From an uncultured Clostridia bacterium (lineage in GTDB: Bacteria; Bacillota; Clostridia; Christensenellales; Borkfalkiaceae), in contig CAMWMZ010000001.1 of assembly GCA_947175485.1 (NCBI GenBank), positions 1 to 64,000 of the forward strand: a stretch of 64,000 nucleotides of DNA. The letters run 5' to 3'. Both the position numbers and the translations under genes were made by a program. Below are positions 3,340 through 50,091 of this stretch, piece by piece (positions within the stretch are counted from its first letter, which is position 1; each line of letters begins with the position of its first letter). The notes beneath the pieces are model-generated. The model was not told where the DNA came from, searched no databases, and was given only the letters and a program-made list of their open reading frames with translations.

Positions 3340-6300
3340 ATGAGTTTATTGAGGAGAAAAATCAGACGTACGGCAATTGCGGGGCTTTCGTTAACGCTTT
3401 GTGCAACGCTTACGGCAAGCTGTGCAATGATTAATATTGAAAATAAGCCGGAGAACCCTTCTTCGGAAGTTAAGAGCGTGGAATTTACCGACGTTACCGA
3501 TAAGTACGATACAAGCAGTTTAACTGCGCAAAATTTCAATACTTCCGTTTTGCCGGGTGAAAAGTCTTATGAAACGAGGACGGTAATAGTCTATCTTAAC
3601 GGCGAGAGCATTCTCGATAATCTTAACGATACGCAGACTGTCGCGGACTATCTTTCAACAAAGGAAGGGCAGGCACGGCTCAGAAGCATAGACAGAGAGC
3701 AAAGAACCTTCCTTAATAAACTCGATTCGCAGGGTATCGATTATAAGCTTAAAAGCAAATATTCAACAATAGCTAACGCCGTTGCGGTTGAAATTAATAC
3801 TTCTTACGTAAAAAGAATAAAAAATATGGGCGGAGTAAGCAGCGCTGTATTAAGCAATACTTATCTTGCGCCTCAGACGTACGAATCCGCGCAGACGGCA
3901 AATTTGCCTACGAATAATGCAAACGTTTATCCTACAGGTATTTATGATTCTTCTGCTGTAAGCAGCGAAAGCTGGGGTCAAGGACAGGGAATGGTGGTTG
4001 CCATACTCGACACGGGACTTGATTATACCCATAACGCTTTCCAGACGATACCCGACGTTCAAAGCATGACGGTAAACGACGTATCTGCAGTGCTTACGCA
4101 AACGGAAGCTTATAAAAGAACGGCTGCGCTCGGCGGAACGCTTACGGCAGACAGTTTGTACGTGAGCGGTAAAGTGCCTTTCGCATTCGACTATGCGGAT
4201 AACGACGCGGACGTTTATCCTTCTTACTCCAATCACGGAACACACGTTGCCGGTATTGTCGGCGGATATGACGAAGACGGATACGACGATAAAGACGGTA
4301 ATCATATAAATGAAACCTTCAAAGGCGTTGCTCCCCAGTCACAGCTTGTAATTTGCAAAACTTTCACGGATAATCTTGACGATTCCGCTTTGGGCGGCGC
4401 AGAAAGCGAAAACATCATGTCCGCATTGGAGGACTGCGTTGTTTTGGGCGTTGATGTTATCAACATGAGTCTTGGTTCTACCGCAGGCTTCACAACGACC
4501 GACGACGGAGACGACGAGGGAGAGCATTTTAACAGGATTTTTGAAAGCATACGTGAAAGCGGAATAAGCCTTATATGTGCGGCAAGTAACGATTACAGCG
4601 CAGGATTCGGAAGTATTTACGGAACAAACCTTGCAACCAATCCCGATTCGGGCACGGTAGGTTCGCCTTCAACATATTTTGCGGCGCTTTCAGTGGCAAG
4701 TATCAGCGGACAGGAATCAGAGTATTTGGAAGCAAGCGACGGTACGCCGATATTTATTGAAAATTCCACTAACGGCAACGGTGTTTTTTATGATTTCGTT
4801 GACGATATTTTAGACGGTGAAGAAGAAAAAGAACTCGAATACGTAGTTGTTGGTTCAGGACAGCAAAGCAACTATAACGGAGTTGCGGGAAATCTTATTA
4901 AGGGAAGAATCGCGTTAATCAAGCGTGGTATCAATACTTTCCAAGAGAAGGTTGAACTGGCGATAGACGCAGGTGCAAGCGGCATAATTATCTGGAATAA
5001 CGTTTCGGGTACTATAAGAATGTCGCTCGGGGATATTCCCGAAAGCGAATTAAAGCCTGCTGTTTCGGTAACAATGGACGCAGGTAACAAGCTGGTTTCG
5101 CTTGCAAGCAGCGGACAAAACGGAATTGTAGGTAAAATTAAGGTAAAAAGGAGCAATTCCGCCGGTCCTTTTATGAGCCCGTTCTCTTCTTGGGGAACTA
5201 CAAATGATTTAAGAATCAAGCCCGAAATTACTGCGCACGGCGGCGAAATTACTTCTACCGTGCCCGGAGGATACGCCGAACAGAGCGGAACTTCGATGGC
5301 TTCGCCTAATATGGCCGGCTTGACTGCTCTTGTCAGAAATTATATCGTTAACAGCAACGAGCTCAGAACTTATATTACCGATAACGGAACTGTAAGCGGA
5401 AATATAGTTCAAAGTAAAGTTACGCAGCTTGCAAACCAACTCATTATGAGTACGGCTACTACGGTTTATGATGAAACAAATCTTGCATATTCTCCCCGCA
5501 AACAAGGCTCGGGGCTTGCAAGTCTTAATAATATCGTAAATACAAAAGCGTATCTTTTCACCGATAAGGAGAGCGACGGCGCACTTTATTATGAGGAAAA
5601 AGATTGCAGACCTAAAATCGAACTCCAAGACGACAAAGACGAAAAAGGCGAGTATACTTTCAGCTTTAAAGTAAAGAATTTCGGATCGGACGTTCTGAAT
5701 TTTACTCCGCAGTCGATATTTATGACGGAAGAAATCGACAGTACCGGCGTTGCGGTTGCCGAAAAAGCACATATGCTTAACAATAACGCGACGTTTAAAG
5801 TTGACGGTACCGCAGTGAGCGATAAAATTTCCGTGGGTGCAGGCGAAACGAAGCTTATAACCGTTACTTTGAAGCTTACAGAAGAAGAGAAGTCTTATAT
5901 ACGGGCAAATTTCAAAAACGGGATGTTTGTAGAAGGCTTTATTAAGCTTGTGGGAGAAAACGGACAGTGTGATTTGAACGTTCCTTTCCTTTCTTTCTTC
6001 GGCGACTGGAAAAAAGCACCCATGCTTGATTATACGGCTTTTGAGATAGCGGCAAATCAGCAGGATTCTTCGGTTTTGGAAGAAGAAAAAATAAAGGAAA
6101 CCGTTTGGGCTACGCAGCCTTACGGAGCTTATAACGGAGATGATTTCATAATTCCGCTTGGTTCTTACGTTTATACGTTGCCCGATGACGCGGATAAAAT
6201 GTACCCCGATGAAGAGCACTGCGCGATTTCCAGATTCAATGAAATCGTAAGCGATGACGGCAGAGGCAATTATACTACCGTATATGAACTCAGATGCGTA

Positions 6301-46220: not shown

Positions 46221-47096
46221 TTGGAATTTAAAGAAAAGTACAATTTTTATCTCAAAGAATTTGAACGAATTTTGGAATGCTTTTGCAATGAAATTAATTG
46301 CAGACCGGAGATATTGGGTGACAGTCTTAAATATAGCTTGTTACTCGGGGGGAAACGTATACGTCCCGTATTAACCTTTGCGACAGCCGATTTGCTTGGG
46401 TTAGAAAGGCGCAAAGCGGTAAATTTTGCACTTGCGATAGAGTTAATTCATACCTATTCACTGATTCATGATGATTTGCCGGAAATGGATAACGACGATT
46501 TCAGACGCGGAAAACCTTCTAATCACAAGGTTTTTGGTGCGGGGAACGCTGTTTTGGCCGGTGACGGACTTTTAAATACGGCGTATTCGGTTTTGCTTAA
46601 AGAATGTAAAAACGGTGCCGAGTATATTTCGGCGGCGCAATTTATTTGCGATTGTGCAGGCATTTACGGAATGATTGCAGGGCAATCCGCCGATCTTTTG
46701 CATGAACACGAAACGAGTTTTAATGAAGCCACGTTGAACTTTATTTATGAAAATAAAACTGGTAAGCTTCTCATGTCTTCGGTTGTTGTTCCGTCTATAC
46801 TAAACGGCGGAAGATGCTATTCGGAATTAAAGACCTTTGGCAGGGACTTAGGCTTGTTGTTTCAGATTACCGATGATATTTTAGACGTTGAGGGGGAATT
46901 CCGTTCGCTCGGAAAGAGTATAGGAAAGGATGAAGCGGAAGGAAAATATACTTCCGTAAGTCTTTACGGGCTTGACGGTGCTAAGCTTCGCGCAGATGTC
47001 CTTGCACAAAGATGCAGGGCTGTTCTGGAGGGAATTGACGGCGACAGGGAATTTATGTTGCAGTTGGTTGATTACGTTCGTTCCCGAAAAAATTGA
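46221..47096 (+). CDS. ispA: Polyprenyl synthetase (farnesyl/geranyl diphosphate synthase)
   Basis: LLLGGKRIRPVLTF; ELIHTYSLIHDDLPEMDNDDFRRGKPSNHKVF; FQITDDILDVEGEFRSLGKSIGKDEAEGK. Confidence 0.95.
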   Translation: MEFKEKYNFYLKEFERILECFCNEINCRPEILGDSLKYSLLLGGKRIRPVLTFATADLLGLERRKAVNFALAIELIHTYSLIHDDLPEMDNDDFRRGKPSNHKVFGAGNAVLAGDGLLNTAYSVLLKECKNGAEYISAAQFICDCAGIYGMIAGQSADLLHEHETSFNEATLNFIYENKTGKLLMSSVVVPSILNGGRCYSELKTFGRDLGLLFQITDDILDVEGEFRSLGKSIGKDEAEGKYTSVSLYGLDGAKLRADVLAQRCRAVLEGIDGDREFMLQLVDYVRSRKN

Positions 47097-47102
47097 AAAG
47101 TA

Positions 47103-47131
47103 TTGACATTTTGACGCGTATATGTTATAAT
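47103..47131 (+). promoter_or_regulatory. Perfect-consensus sigma-A promoter of the large ncRNA
   Basis: TTGACA (47103-47108), N17, TATAAT (47126-47131). Confidence 0.85.
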
Positions 47132-47137
47132 TTTAGC

Positions 47138-47735
47138 AAACTTGTATAGTGGTGCAGTATTCTAGTCAATTTCCACTGAAACGAAGACGGGGGTAAAATA
47201 CCGTTAAAGGGCATATCGATGAAGTTTCTGGTGTTTGCTTGCTTTGCCAAAAGTGGGTGAATGCTGGGAGTAAAGGTGTATGGGAGCTAGGTAACGGCAT
47301 ACCGCAGCCCTCCCCATTCACCGTGGAGGCGCGCAGCCTTAAACGGAGGCGCGTATAAACCTGCTATCAGGCGAAAGCTTGGTACAGAGTAGCCTGCCTT
47401 GAGTGAAAACAGCGGATAACGGAACACGGTTTATTTCGTTCGGCCGGACGAAAGCAACCTATTGCCGTTTGAAATTGATTTTTGCAAAAGAGGATTAGCT
47501 CATTGAAAATTGTCAAGGAAAGCTTCTAGACTGTCTTTATATTAGAGATTAAGGTGTGGACTAAGTGGTGATTCGGTTATGCTTTGCATTCGCGCCCTTA
47601 AAAGGAAACTGCTTCTTCGGCGACGGGAAGTGGGCGTTGAGGGAAATCCTACCGAACCTAAGCCGCAAAGTTTATTTAATATAAACCACTATATTTGTTT
47701 TTATTACGCACGAGAAGAAGTGCGTATTATTTTTA
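47138..47735 (+). ncRNA. ole: OLE (ornate, large, extremophilic) RNA
   Basis: About 600-nt noncoding, GC-richer, structured region between ispA and dxs, directly upstream of a membrane-protein gene. This is the known ole-oapA context in Bacillus halodurans-type loci (nusB-folD-ispA-ole-oapA-dxs-tlyA-argR-recN-spoIVB). Internal helices visible by eye include GGTGAATG..GGGAG / CTCCC-CATTCACC (47256-47322) and AGTGG/CCACT. Ends are approximate. Confidence 0.87.
47705..47734 (+). terminator. Terminator-like hairpin at the 3' end of the OLE RNA
   Basis: TACGCAC-gagaagaa-GTGCGTA followed by ttatttttt-like U-rich tract. Confidence 0.6.
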
Positions 47736-47739
47736 AATT

Positions 47740-48360
47740 ATGGATACTGATACACAAAGATTGCAAACAAAAAAAGAAAACAAGGAAGAGCCGCCAAGTC
47801 GCGGCGTAAAAAAGAAAAAACACAAAAAAAAGCATAAGTACGCTTGGTTAACGTGGGGAATTACTGTATTCTTCATATCGTTTGCCTTGACCGTGCTTTT
47901 TAGTTTTTTAACGGAAATTGCGGTAAAAGACAGCGCGGCGTTCGTTTGCGTTATGGTTTTATTCGTATTGCTGATATTAAATATCGGTTGTGATTTGCTT
48001 GCGAACGCGATTATGTCGTGCAGTCCCGAAGCGTATCACGCAATGGCTTCCAAGAAAATCAAGGGGGCAAAGCGTGCAGTGGTTTTTTGCCGTAATGCAA
48101 GTAAGCTTTCAAGCATTTTTGCAGACGTAATAGGAGATATTTGCGGAATTGTAAGCGGTGCCGCAGGTGCGGCGCTTGCCGTTCATCTTGCTTTTAACGG
48201 CACAACGGGACAGCTTATCGCTTCTATAGGAGTAAGTGCGGTAATAGGCGCGTTAACTGTAGGAGGCAAGGCGCTTTTTAAGCACTTTGCCGTGACTTTC
48301 AATAAACAGATAGTATTCGGCTTTGCCAGATTTACTACCTTCTTTATAAAGGAAAGGTAA
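47740..48360 (+). CDS. oapA: OLE-associated membrane protein (OapA-like)
   Basis: 206 aa; Lys-rich basic N-terminus (KKKKHKKKHKYAW) then several TM segments (WGITVFFISFALTVLFSFLTEI, AAFVCVMVLFVLLILNIGCDLLANAIM). Located directly downstream of the OLE RNA and abutting dxs. Confidence 0.85.
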   Translation: MDTDTQRLQTKKENKEEPPSRGVKKKKHKKKHKYAWLTWGITVFFISFALTVLFSFLTEIAVKDSAAFVCVMVLFVLLILNIGCDLLANAIMSCSPEAYHAMASKKIKGAKRAVVFCRNASKLSSIFADVIGDICGIVSGAAGAALAVHLAFNGTTGQLIASIGVSAVIGALTVGGKALFKHFAVTFNKQIVFGFARFTTFFIKER

Positions 48361-50091
48361 ATGCTTGAAAATATAACGGGTGCGCAGCTCAAAAAAATGA
48401 CTTTGAAAGAGCTTTTGGCTCTTTGCGAGGAAGCGAGAGAAATTATTACACGAACCGTTTTAAAAAACGGCGGACATTTGTCTTCCAACCTCGGAACGGT
48501 CGAGCTTTCTGTTGCGCTTAATTATGTATTTGATTTTCCTAAGGATAAGCTTGTTTTTGATGTCGGGCATCAGTGCTATACTCATAAACTGCTTACGGGA
48601 AGATATTTCGAATTCGATACCATTAGGCAGAAAGGCGGAATATCAGGCTTTCCAAAGAGAGCGGAGAGCGAATATGATTGCTATAATGTTGGGCACGCGG
48701 GGACTTCGGTTTCCGCGGCTTTAGGTATTGCAAAAGCAAGAGATATTAACGGCGAAAATTTCAACGTTATTGCATTAATCGGCGACGGTTCGTTTAATAA
48801 CGGGCTGATTTATGAGGCTTTTAACAGCTTAAGACTTCTTAATACTAATATTTTACTTATTTTAAATGATAACGGAATGTCTATTGCTCCGACGGTTGGC
48901 AGCATGCACGAGTATCTGGAAATCTTAAGCGAGGATATTACACAAAAACATAAAAAAGACCGTCATGCAAAAATTTTTGAAAGATTCGGTTTCGAATATG
49001 ACGGCGTTTACGACGGTAACGACCTTGAAAAAATGATTTCAAAACTTGAGGAAATCAAGGAAAAACTTAAAACGCAATCTGTTATTTTGCATGTTTTGAC
49101 AAAAAAAGGTAAGGGATATTCGTTTTGTGAAGAAAATCCCGAGGTTACACACGGCATAACCAATTCTACGGAAAAGGTTGATGAATATTCTGAAATTTTA
49201 GGTAAAACGTTAACCCGCCTTGCTGAAAAGGATAAAAGAATAGTTGCCGTTACTGCGGCGATGACGTCGAGTCTTGGGCTTTCGGAATTTTTTGAAAAAT
49301 ATCCTGACCGTTCGGTTGACGTTGGTATATGCGAAGAACACGCTGCGATTTTATGTGCATCGATGGCGACGGAAGGATTAAAGCCCTATTACGCGGTTTA
49401 TTCTACTTTTTTGCAAAGATCGTTTGACGAAATAATAATAGATATTTGCAGCCAGAATTTACCTGTGACGCTTTGCATTGACCGTGCCGGGATTTCCGGT
49501 TCTGACGGCGAAACGCATCAGGGCGTTTTTGATTTGTCTTTTTTGAGTTTTATACCAAATTTGACTATTGCCGTACCGAAAGATATAAGCGAATTTGAAA
49601 AAATGCTTGAATTCAGTGCTGAATTTAACGCCCCCTTAGCGATAAGGTATCCGCGCTCGGGTAATAAGATTTTTAATAAAAGAGACGAAATATTATGCGG
49701 TCAATGGGAGAAATTAACCGAGGGTGACGGAAAGTATGCTTTAATCGCTTGCGGTGAAAGGGCGATAAACTGTGCTTTAAATGCAGAAAGTTTATTGCGT
49801 GAAAAAGGAGTGCGTCTTTCGGTTATCAACGCTTGTTTTGTGAAGCCAATGGATACGGAAACGCTTGATAGCTTAAAGGAAAAATTTATTTTAACCGTTG
49901 AAGATAATATGCTTATCGGCGGTTTAGGTTCTTTAATAAACACTTATTTTTCGGCGGAAAATAAAATAATTAAGAATTTCGCATATGCGGATGACTTTAT
50001 TCCGCAAGGCGGGGTATCCGAGCTTATGGAAGAATTAGGATTAAGCGCGGAGAAAATCGTTGATTATATTTTAACAAATGAGAATAGATAA
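48361..50091 (+). CDS. dxs: 1-deoxy-D-xylulose-5-phosphate synthase
   Basis: GGHLSSNLGTVELSVALNYVFDFPKDKLVFDVGHQCYTHKLLTGR; IGDGSFNNGLIYEAFN; CIDRAGISGSDGETHQGVFDLSFL. Confidence 0.97.
   Translation: MLENITGAQLKKMTLKELLALCEEAREIITRTVLKNGGHLSSNLGTVELSVALNYVFDFPKDKLVFDVGHQCYTHKLLTGRYFEFDTIRQKGGISGFPKRAESEYDCYNVGHAGTSVSAALGIAKARDINGENFNVIALIGDGSFNNGLIYEAFNSLRLLNTNILLILNDNGMSIAPTVGSMHEYLEILSEDITQKHKKDRHAKIFERFGFEYDGVYDGNDLEKMISKLEEIKEKLKTQSVILHVLTKKGKGYSFCEENPEVTHGITNSTEKVDEYSEILGKTLTRLAEKDKRIVAVTAAMTSSLGLSEFFEKYPDRSVDVGICEEHAAILCASMATEGLKPYYAVYSTFLQRSFDEIIIDICSQNLPVTLCIDRAGISGSDGETHQGVFDLSFLSFIPNLTIAVPKDISEFEKMLEFSAEFNAPLAIRYPRSGNKIFNKRDEILCGQWEKLTEGDGKYALIACGERAINCALNAESLLREKGVRLSVINACFVKPMDTETLDSLKEKFILTVEDNMLIGGLGSLINTYFSAENKIIKNFAYADDFIPQGGVSELMEELGLSAEKIVDYILTNENR

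Follow-up and report, generated by a model that had tools for sequence, protein, structure and literature searches.

An OLE RNA gene between ispA and oapA

The locus described here raises the question of what is encoded between ispA and dxs, and what close relatives carry when they lack it. Note that "the window" is the whole stretch of DNA analysed (64,000 nucleotides), part of the 1.6 Mb genome of an uncultured Clostridia bacterium. The upstream neighbour, ispA (46221-47096, + strand), encodes a polyprenyl synthetase (Pfam PF00348, 4.5e-52). Downstream is dxs (48361-50091, +; Pfam PF13292/PF02779/PF02780). A preliminary description proposed that the DNA from 47138 to 47735 specifies OLE, a large structured RNA. 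Consistent with this, Rfam cmscan matched OLE (RF01071) to positions 47133-47705 of the forward strand. The match scored 393.2 bits (E 5.2e-112), where the curated cut-off is 50 bits, and covered the model in full (positions 1-616). No other Rfam family reached its cut-off there. Hence, neither an absent OLE match nor a better fit to another family, which the description had named as grounds for doubt, was found. Elsewhere in the window, cmscan detected RNase P only, and the genome has a single copy of OLE. The neighbouring genes agree in part with the order that had been claimed. The arrangement ispA-ole-oapA-dxs is present, with recN-spoIVB further downstream, but xseAB is not between folD and ispA, which are 2 nt apart.

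Other features of the interval were also as first described. Open reading frames within it are short (51 and 76 aa). The G+C content is 44.7%, compared to 27-32% in the immediately flanking DNA. The folding z-score is -3.5 and none of 100 shuffled sequences was as stable. A sigma-A-type promoter is located at 47103-47131 (+). This has the -35 hexamer TTGACA (47103-47108), a 17 nt spacer, and the -10 hexamer TATAAT (47126-47131), so 12 of 12 positions match, and a TG motif precedes the -10 element. At the other end of the interval is a probable intrinsic terminator (47705-47734, +). It consists of a 7 bp hairpin (TACGCAC/GTGCGTA, 47705-47726) and then the U-rich tract TTATTTTT, predicting an RNA end near 47734. 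Given a promoter that ends at 47131, and the position of the hairpin and U-rich tail, we predict an ole transcript of about 597 nt (47138-47734, +). These ends coincide with those first suggested. Congeners with OLE have a recognisable -35/-10 pair at the same position, while the surrounding DNA differs, and a comparable hairpin after the RNA gene. The ACGCAC/GTGCGT stem is kept in most of them and the loop is variable. The hairpin may have a role beyond termination. The oapA start in the window has no clear Shine-Dalgarno sequence upstream.

Structure and class of the RNA

The Rfam consensus structure, with helix P1 added, was mapped onto the window sequence. Base pairs were then counted in an alignment of 31 OLE sequences, drawn both from within the genus and from other families of the order. 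Changes on both sides were evident for 107 of the 150 pairs, and 87.5% of cells were paired. The covariation score was 0.502, compared to 0.204 for shuffled alignments; none of 500 shuffles reached the observed value and all slid controls were also lower. In P1, an 8 bp helix, the 5' strand UAUAGUGG (47145-47152, +) pairs with the 3' strand CCACUAUA (47686-47693, +), and four pairs have changed on both sides. Note that helix numbers, besides P5 and P6, were assigned by order along the RNA. In P6, the duplex to which bS21 binds in the known system, the G-C pairs between alignment columns 152-154 and 183-185 are invariant. The anti-Shine-Dalgarno-like stretch of P6 (CCUCC) is not conserved in the genus: it occurs in the window and in one congener, G315, and is absent from the other congeners of the alignment.

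The RNA shares its full-length architecture and conserved core with OLE of Halalkalibacterium halodurans (RF01071), which works with OapA, OapB, OapC, and bS21. The ispA-ole-oapA-dxs neighbourhood, and genes for OapA and OapB, are also common to both. Differences from the H. halodurans system are shorter P7 and P12.2 elements, the retention of CCUCC in P6 by the window and G315 but not by the other aligned congeners, and the lack of a detectable L7Ae/OapC gene in the genome of the window. Published OLE variants from uncultured Bacillota, with small genomes, resemble the window in their hosts and in having a shortened P7. Variant 1 (TANB77) has short P7, P8, and P9 segments and no OapB site; variant 2 (RF39) is without P7 and P8 (PMC11332333).

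Two other readings of the interval bear on these observations. Logically, an RNA of variant 1 or variant 2 type, having dropped the part that binds OapB, might work with OapA alone. The genome is indeed small and has no OapC, P7 is 28 nt (mostly 31-69 in the order), and the P12.2-P13 region is 71 nt (mostly 79-82 in others). However, P8 and P9 have lengths inside the range for other OLE RNAs of the order, the P13 loop region is retained, and an oapB gene is present. Hence, of the segments that define variant 1, only P7 is short, together with P12.2, while P7 and P8, which variant 2 lacks, are both here. We consider this reading very unlikely. Alternatively, the interval might not specify an independent RNA but act in cis as a regulatory leader for oapA, since it sits directly upstream of that gene, with a terminator-like hairpin close in front of the start codon. 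Against this, the match is full-length, and the large RNA family concerned is known to function as a ribonucleoprotein. Furthermore, OLE can be kilobases from oapA in other lineages (about 3.6 kb upstream in locus L051), and OLE sequences of congeners are 84-92% identical to that of the window, far above the flanking genes. A leader is thus extremely improbable. We conclude that the window encodes an ordinary, full-length OLE RNA with a shortened P7, which adds one more member to an established class.

Protein partners

The gene that follows ole, oapA (47740-48360, +), encodes OLE-associated membrane protein A (206 aa). In all 30 of the OLE loci listed from the order, oapA is directly 3' of the RNA gene. 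There are metagenome-assembled genomes (MAGs) in which oapA does not adjoin OLE: L061 (OapA at 4004-4531), L050, and L051. In L061 and L050, OLE was not found. The protein has a DxxxD motif at residues 129-133, and both D129 and D133 are invariant in a family alignment of 20 sequences. A search of NCBIfam returned no name for OapA or for OapB.

Several comparisons identify OapA as a distant relative of the CNNM domain found in MpfA/CorC/CNNM Mg2+ exporters. Briefly, the Pfam CNNM match (1.6e-4) is below cut-off, profile comparison with the MpfA proteins of relatives gives a weak match (hhalign probability 40, E 3e-4), and the structures nearest to the predicted model are CNNM/CorB transmembrane domains (7M1T, 7M1U, and 7CFF), at E values above 0.02 and probabilities of 0.94-1.00. 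Unlike those transporters, OapA is without CBS and CorC_HlyC domains and has the DxxxD motif, while congeners that lack OLE carry a full MpfA. With 206 aa, and only a sub-threshold CNNM match, OapA was not assigned to the MpfA/CNNM transporters. That OapA might work like them rests on the similarity of predicted folds.

The oapB gene was found by reading the interval between map and infA (G000:C3:69055-69351). The open reading frame there matches PDB chain 7k9b, OLE-associated protein B, with E 2.9e-6. The KOW domain (PF00467), also tried as a means of finding OapB, gave a single match (G000:C3:62245). This falls in a 142-aa open reading frame (L197:4231-4659), whose location in a ribosomal-protein cluster leads us to regard it as ribosomal protein L24. 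For OapC, no PF01248 (L7Ae) match was detected in the genome, which is about 97% complete. OapC is optional, being present in about 45% of species with OLE. Binding of OapC, and of bS21, has been described (PMC9723947, PMC12054373).

OLE and MpfA exclude one another among close relatives

At the level of clades, OLE is anticorrelated with MpfA and is paired near-obligately with OapA (PMC11332333). We detected MpfA-type transporters as CorC_HlyC (PF03471). Among 200 sampled genomes of the order, 100 have OLE and 99 have PF03471. Both are found in 22, OLE only in 78, MpfA only in 77, and neither in 23 (Fisher p 4e-15, with no correction for relatedness). Among the sampled genomes of the family, MpfA is encoded by none of 13 with OLE and by 99 of 138 without. 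Within the genus, OLE is present in 56 of 94 species genomes, or 38 of 62 when completeness is at least 90%. In a sample of 19 genus genomes, all 11 with OLE have oapA and none has MpfA; all eight without OLE also lack oapA, and seven have MpfA, the exception being G269. That OLE-OapA and MpfA are alternatives has been proposed in print, and these data support the proposal within a single genus. Neither OLE nor PF03471 is found in the sampled genomes of genus g3 (G064, G084, G102, G118, G132, and G182), nor in G269. Hence, possession of one of the two systems is not obligatory.

Inheritance, loss, and exchange of the RNA gene

When OLE presence is traced on a tree built from ten neighbouring proteins, its state must change five times. 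Four independent pairs can be compared across supported branches. In these, MpfA changes in the opposite direction to OLE in 3.5 cases on average and in the same direction in none, though with four pairs a sign test cannot reach 0.05. Where congeners lack OLE, the site of ole-oapA is a junction of 9-101 nt, between ispA and dxs or ispA and tlyA. In one of these, G193, the 66-nt gap between ispA and tlyA contains TACGCAC...GTGCGTATTTTTTT, the same stem as in the OLE terminator hairpin. A chance origin is unlikely because ACGCAC-N3..14-GTGCGT has one match in the 64-kb window, the OLE hairpin itself, with 0.03 expected by chance. From its sequence, the G193 hairpin seems to be a scar of lost OLE. 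For G223, no OLE match was found in the 1.4-kb stretch scanned around the ispA-dxs gap. The dxs gene is missing from the ispA-tlyA cluster of G158, G297, G315, and G193 (L119, L210, L208, and L198, respectively); in G158 and G193, a diverged dxs lies on a different stretch. For MpfA, transfer between genera was assessed by holding the genus rows together (AU p 0.11), and the gene neighbourhoods of MpfA differ between several members without OLE.

Inheritance of OLE has been largely vertical. The tree of OLE agrees broadly with that of the neighbouring genes, except that G315 is placed with the genome of the window (G000). The OLE sequences of these two genomes (the locus in G315 being L138/L208) share a 551-bp block (47145-47695), bounded at P1, within which 540 of 542 core positions are identical (99.6%). 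By comparison, identity between the two genomes is only 71-74% for ispA and oapA, and OLE sequences of the other congeners are 84-92% identical. The RNA gene may have been exchanged recently, or the block may be an artefact of MAG assembly. In several genomes of the genus, OLE is split over two contigs. That near-identity, between otherwise diverged genomes, would also suit a scenario in which ole-oapA was gained horizontally within the genus, rather than lost by members without OLE. Similarly, OLE is rare in the family outside the genus, being found only in G207 and G208 in our sample. We regard such gain as unlikely, given the congruent trees, the constant ispA-ole-oapA position across families, and the terminator-like relic in G193. 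Hence, loss of an ancestral ole-oapA unit remains our preferred interpretation.

OapB proteins of the core OLE-containing group are 59% identical to those of the deep OLE-containing pair and 42% identical to those of the main clade without OLE. For residues 58-90, in the C-terminal half, the equivalent values are 59% and 27%. Note that the main clade without OLE is no farther than the deep pair from the core group on the species tree. For map, adk, infA, and rpsM, there is no comparable drop. In G193 and G261, which represent single OLE losses, most of the OapB C-terminal half is still kept. We take the divergence after the main loss to reflect relaxation of an OLE-dependent constraint on this part of the protein; other causes are possible.

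Implications

We propose that OLE RNA (47138-47734) has a strong promoter of its own, from which transcription would proceed as far as the hairpin that precedes oapA. Judging by homology with H. halodurans, the RNA would form a membrane ribonucleoprotein with OapA and OapB, without OapC, and this would help cells withstand Mg2+ and other stresses. The ole-oapA unit was probably ancestral in the genus and lost several times. Since most of the species that lost it have an MpfA-type Mg2+ exporter, the needs met by the two systems probably overlap. We hold this explanation, as a whole, with high confidence. More tentatively, and at a little under even chances, the ribonucleoprotein of OLE and OapA may, within the genus, be interchangeable with MpfA, an exporter made of protein only. 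Losses of ole-oapA would then be paired with MpfA, and OapB freed afterwards from an OLE-specific constraint on its C-terminal half. The OLE gene may also be exchanged between species by itself, judging by the 551-bp block that is almost identical in G315.

The host is plausibly a gut bacterium because named relatives of its OapA are mostly from MAGs of Clostridia and Bacilli. The preliminary description overstated the novelty of OLE in such an organism. Previously, OLE was reported in the uncultured gut Bacillota TANB77 and RF39 (PMC11332333, mSphere 2024), so neither the class of RNA nor the niche is new. Instead, the value of the locus is its comparative setting: in one genus, and at one site, ole-oapA is present or absent, MpfA has the opposite distribution, and OapB is left behind. 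A fine-scale comparison of OLE and MpfA of this kind was not found in PMC11332333, PMC9723947, or PMC12054373. The anticorrelation published for clades is here resolved into several comparisons between close relatives. Attention is also drawn to the C-terminal half of OapB, where constraint may depend on OLE. With almost all of its OLE-lacking members carrying mpfA, the genus is a natural test of mutual replacement between OLE and mpfA.
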